Shown one piece after another: positions 41,624 to 46,660 of a stretch of DNA of 64,000 bases (its first letter is position 1; every line of letters begins with the position of its first letter). The DNA is from Acinetobacter puyangensis (GTDB lineage Bacteria > Pseudomonadota > Gammaproteobacteria > Pseudomonadales > Moraxellaceae). A program made the translations under genes and the position numbers. The stretch covers positions 186,001 through 250,000 of the forward strand of contig NZ_OANT01000003.1 of assembly GCF_900096995.1 (NCBI RefSeq), read 5' to 3'. The notes below the pieces were generated by a model that made no database searches, was not told the DNA's origin, and saw nothing but the letters and a program-made list of their open reading frames with translations.

Positions 41624-42859
41624 ATGACAAGCTTACACGATATTCCAGCGATTGCGTATAGTACAGACTATAAAGCACTCGCACAAAAATACCGTCCGAT
41701 CTTTGATCAAATTACTGCGGGTGCTCTACAACGGGAAAAAGAAAGAATTTTACCTTTTGAACCGATTCTGTGGCTTAAACAAGCAGGCTTTGGTGCGGTT
41801 CGTATCCCTGTTGAGCAGGGTGGTGATGGCGCTTCGATTCCCCAACTTTTTCAGCTATTAATTGAACTCTCCAAAGCAGATTCAAATGTCACGCAAGCCC
41901 TACGTGGACATTTCGCTTTTGTTGAAGATCGCTTGAATGCACAGCGAGATGCCGATCAAAGCCACTGGTTTAAACGCTTTGTTGCTGGTGAAATTGTCGG
42001 TAATGCATGGACAGAAATTGGCAATGTCAAAATCGGTGATGTGATTACCAAGGTCACCAAACAGGGTGAGCAATGGATTGTAAATGGTAAAAAATATTAC
42101 ACCACTGGTAGTATCTTTGCCGACTGGTTTGACCTGTTTGCCCAGATTGAGGAAACAGGTGAGTCTGTGATTGCTGCGACTCGAACGCAACAACAAGGCG
42201 TGACCATAGACGATGATTGGGATGGTTTTGGTCAACGCACCACAGGCAGCGGCACAGCGGTTTTAGTCAATGCTGAGGTAGAAGAAGTGATTCCTTTTGA
42301 TTCACGTTTTAAATATCAAACTGCCTTTTATCAACTATTCCATCTATCAACATTAACAGGCATTGCCCAAGCCGCTGTGGCAGAGTTTACCCAGCAAGTA
42401 CGACAACGTACCCGTGTCTTTAGTCATGGTAATGGTGATCGGGTCGATCAGGATGTACAAGTGCTGCAAGTGATTGGTAAAGCATCGGCACAAGCCTATG
42501 CAGCAGAAGCCATTACCATTCAGGCAGCACAGGCTTCACAACGGGCTTTTCATGCACATTTTTCCCAAGATGAAGAGGCTGAAAAGCACATCAATATTTT
42601 GGCAGAAATCGAATCTGCACAAGGGCAAGTCGTGATTGCTGATCTGGTCTTAGATTTGACCAGTAAATTGTTTAATGTACTTGGTGCTTCGGCAGCAAGT
42701 CGTGACAAAGCATTGGATCGCTTCTGGCGCAATGCACGTACTGTATCTTCTCATAATCCACTTATTTATAAAGAGAAAAGTATTGGCGACTGGGAGGTGA
42801 ATGGTACAGAGCCAATTTATGCATGGCAGATTGGTGGTGGTAGTAAAGAGAACGGCTAG
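41624..42859 (+). CDS. DszC-like FMNH2-dependent monooxygenase (acyl-CoA dehydrogenase fold)
   Basis: A 411-residue paralog of the 6161 gene. QREKERILPFEPILWLKQAGFGAVRIP, KYYTTGSIFADWFDL, DDDWDGFGQRTTGSGTA and LDRFWRNARTVSSHNP are shared motifs. It is the third gene of the msuE-sfnG operon, 21 bp after sfnG. It may oxidise a dimethyl-sulfide-derived or other sulfur compound with FMNH2; members of this branch include SfnC and DszC. A terminator follows. Confidence 0.82.
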   Translation: MTSLHDIPAIAYSTDYKALAQKYRPIFDQITAGALQREKERILPFEPILWLKQAGFGAVRIPVEQGGDGASIPQLFQLLIELSKADSNVTQALRGHFAFVEDRLNAQRDADQSHWFKRFVAGEIVGNAWTEIGNVKIGDVITKVTKQGEQWIVNGKKYYTTGSIFADWFDLFAQIEETGESVIAATRTQQQGVTIDDDWDGFGQRTTGSGTAVLVNAEVEEVIPFDSRFKYQTAFYQLFHLSTLTGIAQAAVAEFTQQVRQRTRVFSHGNGDRVDQDVQVLQVIGKASAQAYAAEAITIQAAQASQRAFHAHFSQDEEAEKHINILAEIESAQGQVVIADLVLDLTSKLFNVLGASAASRDKALDRFWRNARTVSSHNPLIYKEKSIGDWEVNGTEPIYAWQIGGGSKENG

Positions 42860-42869
42860 TCTTGTTTTT

Positions 42870-42907
42870 AAATAAAATGCTTATCGGCAGATGAGCGTTT
42901 TATTTTT
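42870..42907 (+). terminator. Terminator of the msuE-sfnG operon
   Basis: AAATAAAATGCT (42870-42881) pairs with AGCGTTTTATTT (42894-42905; one G-U pair), then TT. It lies just before the XerC/D site at 42981. Confidence 0.75.
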
Positions 42908-42980
42908 GTAGAAAGTGTTATAAAATATTTTAGAGCTATACTCTTTTTTATATAATTTATTCATTATGTTATGGATTTTT

Positions 42981-43008
42981 ATTTCGCATAAGAGATTTTA
43001 TGTTAAAT
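42981..43008 (+). other. XerC/XerD recombination site 1 (dif/pdif-like)
   Basis: 28-bp site: ATTTCGCATAA (XerC-type arm), 6-bp spacer GAGATT, TTATGTTAAAT (XerD-type arm). The XerD arm is identical to that of the E. coli chromosomal dif. Left boundary of the AT-rich accessory insert. Confidence 0.8.
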
Positions 43009-43268
43009 CTTAGGTTTGATAAATTTTATGATAAACCTCTCATTAGTTATTAAAAATCAATCTATTGATAGGTAATTTTTGCCTTTTATCAAATGATCGT
43101 TTGGGTATAGAACAATGATAGGCTAGTTGCCTAAAATTTCTCAAATGAAAGTCTCTTGCTAGTTCAGCACACATCACTATATCCTGAATACGAACTAGCT
43201 CTGGTTGATAATGTTTCATTTTACTTATTTTTATGTTATTAATATTTAAATTACTATTGTATGATGCA

Positions 43269-44000
43269 ATGTCTAGACAAGTTTTACCTAGAGACATTAA
43301 GTTGCTTTATGGCTTATCAGCAGCTAGATGTAATATATGTGAAAAAGTACTATTTGAACCAAAAATCAATGAAGATGGATATGTTCATATAGGTCAAATG
43401 GCACATAATATTGCTTATTCAGAACATGAAAGTGCGCCTAGAGCTATTGATGGCTTATCAGGTGATAATTCATATCAAAACCTAATTTTACTCTGTGCTA
43501 ATGATCATATTAGTGTTGATCAAAACACAGCCCTGTATACAATAGAATATATTAGAACTATCAAAAATAACTTTGAAAACTCTGTTAGAATTAGGTTGAA
43601 TAATGCTGTTAGACCTGATAAATCTTTAGTTGATTTAATTCACTCAAATTATAATTTACAGGCTTTAATTTACAGCTTAAATTTTCCTTTAATTTTATTA
43701 CCTTTTAACATTGGTGATATCATTGATATGGAAAACTTTTTATTAGAACCAAATAGACCTACTTCTTATCCATTCCGAGATGAAAGGTTAAATGGACTTA
43801 TGCTGCCAATTCTAGAATTGGCTCATCAATTGAGTCCATATATAATTTCATATTATTCCCCTTCTAATGTTGGTGATTTAAGACCAATTAGAGAAAAACA
43901 GATCCCTGTTAATGAGCAGGCTGCTATAACAAATATTGTTCAGAACCTATTTCAATCAATATTTAATTGGCTTGAATATTGTCGAATTAACTATAGTTGA
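43269..44000 (+). CDS. HNH-endonuclease-like protein
   Basis: A 243-residue protein with an N-terminal HNH-type zinc domain: CNIC (Cys21, Cys24), then GQMAHNIAY (His46), and QNLILLCANDHISVD (Asn71, Cys76, His80, Asp84). This is the Cx2C...AH...N..LC..H order of HNH nucleases seen in restriction and defence genes. The C-terminal 150 residues match nothing I recognise. The start is uncertain: ATG 43269 has no ribosome site, and an in-frame ATG at 43233 is possible. It is AT-rich unlike its neighbours and sits alone between two XerC/D sites, so it is probably acquired. Confidence 0.7.
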   Translation: MSRQVLPRDIKLLYGLSAARCNICEKVLFEPKINEDGYVHIGQMAHNIAYSEHESAPRAIDGLSGDNSYQNLILLCANDHISVDQNTALYTIEYIRTIKNNFENSVRIRLNNAVRPDKSLVDLIHSNYNLQALIYSLNFPLILLPFNIGDIIDMENFLLEPNRPTSYPFRDERLNGLMLPILELAHQLSPYIISYYSPSNVGDLRPIREKQIPVNEQAAITNIVQNLFQSIFNWLEYCRINYS

Positions 44001-44005
44001 TTTTG

Positions 44006-44038
44006 AGTGGGATTATATTTTCATTATCAGATCCCACT
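44006..44038 (+). terminator. Hairpin after the HNH gene
   Basis: AGTGGGAT and ATCCCACT form a perfect 8-bp stem with a 17-nt loop, 6 bp past the stop codon. No T-run follows, so terminator function is tentative. Confidence 0.4.
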
Positions 44039-44233
44039 AATAGTGATGTGTGCTGAAAAACAGGATTGTTTAAAGTGGTAAATTATACATTCTGATTAGG
44101 CATTTTATCCCAAGTCTTGTCCGCAGAAATTGGGGATAATTTAGGCACTGTATGAATTGATAATACAGATGAAAAGTTAAATTTGACTAAAAAGAAACCA
44201 ATTTATTGGCGAAATATATCAGAGCTGTATAAA

Positions 44234-44265
44234 AAAGAGCCGATATATTTCTATATCGGCTCTTT
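44234..44265 (-). terminator. Terminator of the serine protease gene
   Basis: Perfect 14-bp stem (44234-44247 and 44252-44265) with a TTTC loop. On the minus strand it is followed by TTT, fitting the serine protease gene that ends at 44395. The rest of 44001-44394 has no recognisable gene; a short open stretch after 44183 is not convincing. Confidence 0.75.
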
Positions 44266-44326
44266 GCTGTTTATTAGGTTTTTATATTTATTTAAATATT
44301 TGATTTTAAATGAAAATATTTAATTA

Positions 44327-44360
44327 ATTTCGCATAACCATAAGCACCATTATGTTAAAT
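44327..44360 (+). other. XerC/XerD site 2, with expanded 12-bp centre
   Basis: Both arms are perfect (ATTTCGCATAA at 44327-44337, TTATGTTAAAT at 44350-44360), but they are separated by 12 bp (CCATAAGCACCA) rather than 6. The extra 6 bp look like a tandem copy of CATAAS from the arm edge. Confidence 0.7.
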
Positions 44361-44394
44361 ATGATTTAAGAAGTATGCTAATAATTTAATATAA

Positions 44395-45225
44395 TTAGAT
44401 CTTCCACGTCTCTATTGCATATGATTCCAAAACTTTGAGTTCACTAGATTTGATTACAATGCCTAAATGCATCATTGAATCAATCTTAAATTGAAGACCT
44501 TTACTTAAAATGATCTGACCAGAACTTGTGAACTGAGGACCCGCATATAAAATACCCAATAATTTTAATCTTGATTGTCCCATCACAATACTTTGAGTTT
44601 TTCTATCTAAGTACCCATCTCTATTGTATAGAAAAACTGGTGAACCAGAAGATCCTGGGAAACACGCCATGTCTATCATGAATTCTTGATTACCATTATA
44701 TGGTTTATTGGGACTAGTTGCCGTAATGCCCTGTCTTATAATAGGTAAATTATTTACAGTATCTGACAAACCATTTGGACAACCTACCATTGTTATTTCT
44801 TCTATGGCATCAAAATATTGCCAATCACCATCTTCGGGTATGATGTCCATTGTGATAGGAGCATAGAAAATTGGAGTACTTTGATGTATGGCTTGCTGTA
44901 GTATTGAACCAATAGATATAGCGCACAAATCTATATTTTGATTAGGATGATTGAGAAGTGTGTCATGTAAAAGGATATTAACATCTATTAAGCTTCCAGA
45001 TGGTTTATAAACAGTTTGGTCTGCTATATGACATTTAATATGTATTTGGTCTGCTCCAGAAACAACGTGTTTATTTGTGATGAGAACAGGTATAAGAGAA
45101 TCTTGGGTTTTATTAAAACATGTAAAAAATCCAGTTCCTGTGCCAATTATATTTCCCTGAGACAAGGCTGTAATTTTTACAGTGGAATAAAGTAAGCTTT
45201 CAGCTATAGATAATGAAAAATTCAT
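44395..45225 (-). CDS. Trypsin-like serine protease domain protein
   Basis: A 276-residue chymotrypsin/trypsin-fold protease. The triad is visible in order: His53 (TNKHVV), Asp99 (NIDLCAI) and Ser193 in GSSGSP (191-196). There is no signal peptide, PDZ domain or membrane helix, so it is probably cytoplasmic, as in protease components of some phage-defence or stress systems. It is AT-rich, stands alone, and lies between XerC/D site 2 and sites 3 and 4. Function is unknown; link to the HNH gene is only by position. Confidence 0.72.
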   Translation of the reverse strand: MNFSLSIAESLLYSTVKITALSQGNIIGTGTGFFTCFNKTQDSLIPVLITNKHVVSGADQIHIKCHIADQTVYKPSGSLIDVNILLHDTLLNHPNQNIDLCAISIGSILQQAIHQSTPIFYAPITMDIIPEDGDWQYFDAIEEITMVGCPNGLSDTVNNLPIIRQGITATSPNKPYNGNQEFMIDMACFPGSSGSPVFLYNRDGYLDRKTQSIVMGQSRLKLLGILYAGPQFTSSGQIILSKGLQFKIDSMMHLGIVIKSSELKVLESYAIETWKI

Positions 45226-45238
45226 GTGATTTTCCTAA

Positions 45239-45266
45239 AATAAACATAATACGTCTTATTCAAAAT
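45239..45266 (-). other. XerC/XerD site 3 (degenerate, inverted)
   Basis: AATAAACATAA, spacer TACGTC, TTATTCAAAAT on the plus strand. It differs from site 4 at four of 28 positions (three in the arms, one in the spacer) and lies 129 bp inside it, just upstream of the protease start codon. Confidence 0.5.
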
Positions 45267-45395
45267 CAACGAAAATATTGTTTTAATTTATTGTTGGGAA
45301 AACAATGAACCATCCATTTTTCGCACCATAAAATAACAAGGATTAAAACTACTAAAAAGATGATTTCTAATTCCTTTATTTTTAAGTATTTATAC

Positions 45396-45423
45396 AATTA
45401 ACATAATACGGCTTATACGAAAT
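45396..45423 (-). other. XerC/XerD site 4 (pdif-like, inverted)
   Basis: On the minus strand: ATTTCGTATAA, spacer GCCGTA, TTATGTTAATT, which fits the Acinetobacter plasmid pdif pattern. Orientation is opposite to sites 1 and 2. Right boundary of the accessory insert. Confidence 0.78.
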
Positions 45424-45477
45424 ATCCAATTTATCTTAGGTATTTCAATAAGTTGGCATGCACCTATTTTACCATCA

Positions 45478-45510
45478 CAGCCGACAGTAACATGCCGGCT
45501 GTTTTTCGCC
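45478..45510 (+). terminator. Terminator-like hairpin at the right edge of the insert
   Basis: ACAGCCGACA pairs with TGCCGGCTGT (one mismatch), 6-nt loop, followed by TTTTT on the plus strand. No plus-strand gene lies directly before it, so it may have been cut off from an earlier transcript by the insertion. Confidence 0.55.
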
Positions 45511-45586
45511 TTTCTGGTACATATCACCAAAAAATTTAGCAGTTTTATGCCAAAAGTGAATTCTATTATTAATTATAGTTTAAATT

Positions 45587-46660
45587 TTAATCTCCCCGTT
45601 TACTCACCACCAATTCTCCCAACTCGATTAATCTTGAACGAACCACATTGCGGCTTAGACCCAATAATTGAGCAGTTTTTACCTGATTTTGATGGCAATA
45701 ATCATAGGCGACCCGTAATAATTGTTCTTCAAACTGTGAATACACTTTGCCTTCGTGTTGCTGAAATAAACCCTGAAAGACTTCTTTGAGTTTTGCATCA
45801 ATCACAGGGCGTTTGGCTTCTTGCTGATGCTTATCGTTGGCACGCTGTGCAGGGGATTTTAACAAAGGCAAATCATCACTTTGAATGATGCCATTTTGGC
45901 AAATCAATAAGGCATGATGAATCATGTTTTCCAGCTCACGAATATTGCCGGGCCACCAGTAATCATTCAGTTTTTGTTTGGCTTGGGCTGAAAATTCGGC
46001 TTTGTCATAGCCCAGTTGTGCATGATATTTGTCAATAAAATGATAGGCCAATGGTAAAATATCACCTTTACGTTCTCGTAATGGTTTGATATTTAAGGTG
46101 ACGACATTAAGGCGATAATATAAATCCTCACGGAACTGTTCGGCAATAATGGCTTGTTCCAGATTGACATTGGTGGCAGCTAAAACCCGTACATCGATGG
46201 CAATACTTTTACGTGAGCCTAAGCGTACCACTTCTCGTTCCTGTAAGACCCGTAATAATTTAACCTGAATGCGTTTAGATAAATCACCGATTTCATCGAG
46301 CAACAAGGTGCCGCCATTGGCCGCTTCAAACCAGCCCGCACTACTGGATAATGCGCCGGTAAAAGCACCTTTTTCATGTCCAAACAGTTCACTTTCCACC
46401 AGATTTTCAGAAAAGGCACCGCAGTTCACCGCGATAAATGGTTTGTGGCGACGATGACTATGTTCATGAATTTGCCTTGCAATCAATTCTTTGCCTGTAC
46501 CTGTTTCACCATGAATCAGAACACTGGCTTCACTTGGCGCAATCTGTTTAATATATTCCAGTAATTTTTGTGATTCTGGATCATTAAAGACTTGTGCCGT
46601 CGCTTTGTGGGAATGACTACGTTGGGTAATTTCGGGCAAAGTAATAATATCTTGTCGCAT
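45587..46660 (-). CDS. sfnR: Sigma-54-dependent activator SfnR-type, copy 2
   Basis: A 357-residue AAA+ enhancer-binding protein lacking a sensory domain. Walker A GETGTGKE (51-58), GAFTGA (98-103), Walker B LLLDEIGD, and a C-terminal Fis-type HTH ending [20 protein letters not shown]. It is last in the msuD-msuC-sfnR set, the same order as the Pseudomonas msu genes followed by an sfnR gene, so it is the best candidate for the orthologous SfnR. Its operon has a sigma-54 promoter with a class A UAS, so self-amplification is likely. Confidence 0.9.

Follow-up and report, generated by a model that had tools for sequence, protein, structure and literature searches.

Acinetobacter plasmids of the Rep_3/OrfX type carry dif modules, in which cargo lies between 28-bp XerC/XerD sites; single modules are replaced between like borders, and fused modules have direct sites (PMC13141974; PMC6449649). 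Additional dif sites have also been reported in chromosomes. Mindlin et al. had found that the central sequences form two clusters and that 19 of 20 chromosomes contain extra sites (PMC6449649). Acinetobacter strain M10 has chromosomal dif modules and a dif module island of 36 kb with resistance genes (PMC12907356). Chromosomal dif modules were thus published in 2019 and 2026, and a chromosomal location is not new. Here we analyzed a 64-kb stretch of an Acinetobacter puyangensis contig (NZ_OANT01000003.1), called the window, in which a 2.4-kb insert at 42981-45423 holds four such sites, an HNH-type nuclease gene and a serine protease gene. The insert has in common with the plasmid modules 28-bp sites, intact at its two outer ends, with cargo between them, replacement of a module between like borders, and direct site pairs as in fused modules. 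Unlike them, it is chromosomal, has one site with a 12-bp spacer and one decayed site, carries HNH and PDC-S45 cargo, and bears a conserved element on the XerC side of a site. It resembles the M10 island in its extra chromosomal sites and plasmid-like modules, and differs from it in measuring 2.4 kb and in having its breakpoints placed against two other genomes. We conclude with strong confidence that the insert is a chromosomal dif-module island whose content is probably exchanged as a block via its outer sites.

The window was scanned with a position weight matrix (PWM) trained on 203 sites from other loci, at a cutoff of 9 bits. Four matches reached the cutoff, all of them within the insert. 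S1 (42981-43008, + strand; ATTTCGCATAA-GAGATT-TTATGTTAAAT) scored 37.2 bits and S4 (45396-45423, - strand; ATTTCGTATAA-GCCGTA-TTATGTTAATT) scored 40.5 bits. Both are intact and of the canonical 11-6-11 form, and the XerC arm of each is directed toward the chromosome. S2 (44327-44360, + strand) is a C/D site of the NNNCCA type, with a PWM match at 44333-44360 of 11.9 bits. Its arms are good, with one mismatch in total, and its spacer of 12 bp is 6 bp longer than that of the homologous site in related copies. S3 (45239-45266, - strand; ATTTTGAATAA-GACGTA-TTATGTTTATT) scored 22.8 bits, has 3-4 mismatches and fits the canonical form poorly. Judged from this damage, S2 is probably impaired and S3 probably inactive. 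An earlier sequence-only reading had proposed four 28-bp XerC/XerD-like sites; four matches do lie at those places, but S2 departs from this form in its spacer and S3 is decayed. It was right that the first two sites point one way and the last two the other (+ + - -), and wrong in calling the arrangement alternating inverted: S1/S2 and S3/S4 are direct pairs and only S2/S3 is inverted. In its direct pairs the order + + - - is like that described for fused CD modules (PMC13141974). The insert is AT-rich, as had been claimed, with 29.8% GC versus 39.4% and 41.6% in the 5-kb flanks.

That these are chance AT-rich look-alikes around two ordinary genes has a negligible probability. When the insert was shuffled 200 times with a first-order Markov model, the best match scored 14.9 bits, more than S2 does alone. 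However, the shuffles contained on average 0.025 matches of at least 9 bits, versus four in 64 kb that all fall within 2.4 kb. Breakpoints also lie at the sites, and both genome comparisons given next contradict a chance origin.

The insert lies between two sulfur genes that we assume, following the names given in the sequence-only reading, to be dszC/sfnB-like and sfnR-like. The source genome is G000 in the comparisons. Judged by the flanking dszC-like gene (99% identical), its closest relative is G071, a sister species, in which an insertion likewise occupies the chromosomal place between the dszC-like and sfnR-like genes. Its outer sites are counterparts of S1 (spacer also GAGATT, with two to three arm changes) and of S4 (spacer GGCGTA). 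On the left, the two genomes are 93.6% identical over window positions 42401-43008, and homology stops at the last base of S1. On the right, identity is 88.5% over 45377-46000, a stretch that starts 19 bp inside S4 and runs to the query's end. Alignment is continuous over the outer 120-170 bp, and the payloads between the borders are unrelated. The G071 cargo comprises a 277-aa protein, a toxin-antitoxin-like pair and two small proteins. Neither the 277-aa protein nor the small proteins matched Pfam; the antitoxin belongs to the NadS family (NCBIfam), and the putative toxin had no NCBIfam match. Relatives of this pair, which we labelled HigBA, occur in more than 10 other fetched loci.

The same cargo was also found at a different place. 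In A. bouvetii (G010, NZ_KB849725.1) the HNH module is on a 617-kb contig, between genes named by eye as gspE-like and osmC-like. Its DNA is 95.1% identical to that of the window over 42981-44326, a stretch that opens with the first S1 base and stops immediately ahead of S2, and the HNH gene is 96% identical. The two genomes have no common flank outside the module, and homology begins at the first base of S1. A search of genome contigs with HNH as the query gave A. bouvetii as the sole match. A relative of the S45 protease (56% amino acid identity) is on A. indicus plasmid pB18-7, in a D module whose two sites, CGTGTA and CCACCA, are perfect. Segments exchanged, or found elsewhere, with their limits at sites, as expected of dif modules, were thus seen in G071, in G010 and on pB18-7, which supports the proposals that the insert is movable and that its modules, or relatives of them, would turn up elsewhere, including on plasmids.

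Part of this pattern could arise if homologous recombination after natural transformation had swapped the block, the sites being merely conserved edge islands. The flank similarity of 88-94% is sufficient for homologous recombination, natural competence is known in A. baylyi (PMC12442408), and such an event would explain the difference between G000 and G071. It does not explain why a plasmid carries the S45 relative as a module flanked by sites, nor why the HNH module occurs at an unrelated A. bouvetii locus where homology begins exactly with S1 and no flank is common. We consider this explanation very unlikely.

Four more distant relatives (G057, G107, G081 and G082) have an empty junction, with 53-90 bp between the aligned dszC-like and sfnR-like ends. 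G091 and G012 were uninformative in this respect, as sfnR is not beside dszC in them. The sequence-only reading had suggested looking for an empty single-site allele; the empty allele exists, but no single site is left there. We thus observed common outer borders with different cargo, one module at different loci, and empty alleles, with breakpoints at the site edges or at most 19 bp away. The sequences make it very probable that the island is movable, and comparison of the loci points to movement of such modules among chromosomal locations. The locus is a clean natural case of chromosomal Xer modules, with one site holding different cargo, one cargo at different sites and breakpoints at the sites.

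We propose that modules like those on Acinetobacter Rep_3/OrfX plasmids entered the gap between the dszC-like and sfnR-like genes. The island would be a fusion of an HNH module (S1-S2, ending in a conserved element, Part A, described below), an S45 module (S2-S3) and a 129-bp remnant (S3-S4). With S1 (GAGATT) and S4 (GCCGTA) inverted and their XerC arms outward, the whole insert would act as one large D-type unit. In a block exchange, a cointegrate would arise when one outer site recombines with a site of like spacer on another replicon, and the other outer site would then resolve it. Both XerCD as the enzyme and the cointegrate as the intermediate are what we infer from the sites. Since the spacers of S1 and S4 differ and the two sites are inverted, simple excision or inversion is not expected. 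Because S2 and S3 appear damaged, excision of single modules is doubtful; an exchange of the whole block via S1 and S4 is the better fit.

The polarity of the outer sites recurs elsewhere. We read by eye, from a listing of 18 one-contig chromosomes, eight clusters of extra sites (the one in G130 needed a relaxed scan), and all have their XerC arms outward, like S1 and S4. The same polarity was seen in the window, G071, G010, L092, L097, L111 and L112. The mostly XerC-out polarity suggests that the chromosome mostly takes the place of the plasmid's C-type backbone. It also bears on the idea that a whole Rep_3/OrfX plasmid integrated and then eroded, leaving dif modules behind, which we regard as rather unlikely. 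That idea draws on site classes and a Part A that are the same as on Rep_3/OrfX plasmids, on the damage to S2 and S3, and on a probable Part A relic outside S4. However, a search of the 64-kb window with a single Rep and a single OrfX query revealed no remnant of either gene (best E 0.34), and random decay does not require the XerC-out polarity of the eight one-contig clusters, exceptions elsewhere notwithstanding. Plasmid erosion would concern only the first entry, and it is compatible with later exchange of modules.

Several observations weigh against a dif-module island exchanged through its outer sites. S2 and S3 appear damaged. Neither an excision product nor a rearrangement or recombination event was observed. 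The occupied site is common to only G000 and G071, and a scan that allowed up to 6 mismatches found no 6-bp-spacer site in the empty junctions of the four relatives, which leaves the first entry unexplained; one match in G081 with 6 mismatches and an 8-bp spacer was taken as chance. At the tail end of the G010 module no CCA site is recognisable, so that the end of the match at S2 reflects divergence of that end and not two intact sites. Polarity has exceptions in L099, which begins with a D/C site, and L080, which ends with a C/D site; both lie on large contigs of multi-contig genomes. Finally, the right border holds the probable Part A relic, and the primary insertion point is not fixed to the base. 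As worn Part A lies outside S4 in both the window and G071, the original array may have been larger.

Part A is a conserved noncoding element (44104..44326, + strand) that abuts the XerC arm of S2 and was delimited by plasmid matches, nhmmer and alignments. The 223-bp element matched 266 of 72,556 plasmid records, all of them Acinetobacter, 116 over at least 80% of the query. With nhmmer, 44104-44317 matched at E 1.3e-48, the window row being among the model's own sequences. A 261-bp query that includes S2 matched 151 of 175 genus genomes (E<=0.001), some weakly. The probable degenerate copy lies on the outer, XerC side of S4 (45439..45560, - strand) and is also present in G071. It gave nhmmer E-values of 1.5e-5 (window) and 6.3e-5 (L063), and E 4.6e-6 with a hidden Markov model (HMM) of the full tail. 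Part A contains a terminator-like hairpin (44234-44265), which covaries, with double changes in 5 of 7 pairs. Two inner hairpins change mostly on one side (double changes in 1 of 6 and 1 of 5 pairs). Rfam had no match in the window insert.

We used a Part A HMM on 51 loci, most of which had been fetched for Part A, so that its frequency in them is biased upward; the class of the adjoining site was not selected. Outside the window, 49 of 66 matches have next to them a like-oriented site whose XerC side faces them (44 CCA, 3 GTA and 2 other). Of the remaining 17, 5 are strong but have no recognised site, and 12 are short and weak. Counted by site, where there was room, Part A adjoins 42 of 81 CCA sites, 3 of 78 GTA sites, 1 of 37 GAGATT sites and 2 of 4 others. 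We rejected the possibility that Part A is the orfX end of the plasmid backbone. The orfX-side site, read by eye, is of the GTA class in 14 of 16 readable cases (L073 and L109 are GAGATT-type), and Part A is absent there. In L013, L025 and L007, Part A gives way to other sequence just ahead of where the XerC arm should be. This other sequence may consist of insertion sequences of the IS1202 family, which target a position 5 bp from the XerC site (PMC10132070). Keyword searches of the literature, which were not exhaustive and reached papers in part, found no description of a conserved XerC-side flank.

In cer and psi, accessory DNA is located on the XerC-arm side. Part A is like them in position only, as a conserved noncoding stretch of about 200 bp that abuts the XerC arm. 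Both are named in a study of A. baumannii plasmids, in which the plasmids tested showed FtsK control and no cer/psi-like cis-elements (PMC11705084). An ArgR-type accessory factor, as for cer, was rejected: PF02863 had 0 matches in the source genome, and the E. coli control was positive.

In relatives, Part A continues, read away from the site, into a second element, Part B. This is the case in 36 of 44 non-redundant copies, which were picked by eye; one of the other eight (L099) is masked in the alignment. The window copy, G010 and several others have Part A without Part B, and the window has no Part B match. The layout of Part B is a palindrome like TGTACGC-N4-GCGTACA, which we take to be GacA-box-like, then a -10-like box and AGGA motifs, with a terminator in 33 of the 36 copies. 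At least 5 GGA motifs are present in a 211-nt stretch in 33 of 36 copies (range 3-9). Over 33 copies, 95.8% of the cells in its hairpins are paired, and 59 cells show double changes versus 17.7 after shuffling. Examples at the Part A end of dif C modules are L091:7384-7515, L011:1740-1871 and L063:10356-10494, with 30 more.

By these features Part B resembles the RsmY/RsmZ/CsrB small RNAs (sRNAs): it has several GGA motifs, covarying hairpins with AGGA loops, a terminator with an AGGA loop and the GacA-box-like palindrome, and the source genome encodes CsrA. It is unlike them in being borne on mobile dif modules and in its RsmY match, which is under the gathering score. When Rfam RsmY was used on six loci, one match was full-length (28.1 bits, E 0.0057, gathering score 57), the lowest E of ten weak matches. 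A model of Part B, R1, matched 174 of 175 genus genomes (E<=0.001), the source genome twice; these E-values are rough, and the training set was dif-linked. Some matches are in one-contig genomes, and so chromosomal copies exist. Among 30 R1 loci, Part A abuts a dif-like site in 22; in 6, all or a piece of Part A is present with no such site, and both are absent from L119 and L137. Paralogous sRNAs are reportedly listed in an A. baumannii transcriptome paper, where the putative Part B sRNA may appear under another name. Two such sRNAs were predicted in the A. baylyi chromosome (PMC5568370), and RsmQ is a plasmid CsrA homolog in Pseudomonas (PMC9928087). Our literature searches, in which sources were available in part, found no report of an Rsm-type sRNA paired with dif modules.

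Spacer classes were surveyed in the same 51 loci (L063-L113), 44 of which have a site. The 206 sites are 83 CCA, 80 GTA, 38 GAGATT, 4 other and 1 dif. Classes were set by the XerD-proximal triplet, whose information content is therefore partly by construction; the dominance of GTA, CCA and ATT is not. Ends of the same class occur in 4 of 77 D modules (expected 29.5) and 7 of 57 C modules (expected 20.4); D-module ends were not a selection criterion. The 250-bp flanks on the XerC side (n=202) form clusters of 58, 32, 23 and 20, of which those of 23 and 20 are partly very short C modules whose flank overlaps the next site. Flanks on the XerD side never form clusters of more than 4.

These results can be joined in one reading, to which we give an even chance. 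There would be three spacer classes (NNNCCA, NNNGTA and GAGATT), modules would rarely have ends of the same class, and Part A, usually joined to the sRNA gene, would stand on the XerC side of NNNCCA sites, so that modules spread Rsm-type sRNA genes genus-wide. The sRNA would be controlled by GacA and sequester CsrA, and Part A may be a cis-acting element for recombination or module expression. The HNH module of the window would be a derivative in which Part A was retained and a nuclease takes the position held in most copies by the sRNA. If this is true, horizontal cargo is tied to the Gac/Csr network of the host. The conserved XerC-side element, together with an Rsm-type sRNA borne by mobile modules across the genus, would make the control of Xer recombination and the choice of cargo on Acinetobacter plasmids testable, and we consider the element and the sRNA the parts most worth following up.

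The HNH-type nuclease gene encodes about 243 aa (43269..44000, + strand; we chose this start, and the open reading frame (ORF) listing begins at an upstream ATG at 43233). It scored 18.7 bits with Pfam HNH_2, under the cutoff of 21, and matched a PADLOC HNH-effector model at E 3.3e-21. Its N-terminal part resembles the HNH effectors of the cyclic-oligonucleotide-based antiphage signalling system (CBASS) and of PDC-M68A; no SAVED domain match was found in the protein. The second gene (44395..45225, - strand) encodes a trypsin-like serine protease of the PADLOC PDC-S45 family, identified from its ORF, Pfam and PADLOC. It matched Pfam Trypsin_2 with 43.4 bits (cutoff 27.6) and PDC-S45 at E 2.2e-101. 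Both gene assignments of the sequence-only reading were hence upheld. NCBIfam had no match for either protein, and the protease had no sequence relative in PDB at E<=0.01. Single-sequence structure predictions were too poor for use, with a mean predicted local distance difference test score (pLDDT) of 40.5 for HNH and 32.7 for S45. A defence role for this cargo is a guess. The two defence-like genes add to the known cargo of dif modules.

The distribution of both genes across the genus, as judged by sequence matches, is patchy. At E<=1e-3, HNH matched 5 of 175 genus genomes including its own, three of them weakly (28-36% identity), and S45 matched 4 of 175 including its own. A second HNH-type gene in A. 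bouvetii (L074:5136-5987) lies in a neighbouring dif module bounded by a CGCGTA site; it is PDC-M68A-like (E 9.4e-25) and has no Pfam match. The S45 homolog of G022 lies within a type I restriction-modification operon (L156:424-9889) that also encodes a Fic protein and has a further gene between hsdM and hsdS. In G037 the homolog is downstream of an impB/mucB-type polymerase gene. The S45 regions of G022 and G037 were scanned and had no dif-like site, and a Moraxella plasmid homolog had no good site. G077 (L152/L153) has a broken S45 gene near a CCA-class site, a case of cargo decay at another dif place.

The chromosomal neighbours of the insert were identified as ORFs with collinear homologs in relatives. 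They are a flavin monooxygenase gene on the left (dszC/sfnB-like; 41624..42859, + strand) and a sigma-54 regulator gene on the right (sfnR-like; 45587..46660, - strand). Between S3 and S4, the 129 bp at 45267-45395 hold no listed gene and are probably a module remnant. An ORF of 84 aa (43043..43297, - strand) had no Pfam family, and a 57-aa stretch of it is conserved in G010. The HNH gene is bracketed by a perfect inverted repeat of 18 bp (43163-43180 / 44040-44057), one arm of which is within this ORF. The repeat is also present in A. bouvetii (L074, 6353 and 7236), and plasmid matches that carry IS3-type transposase annotations touch the same stretch.

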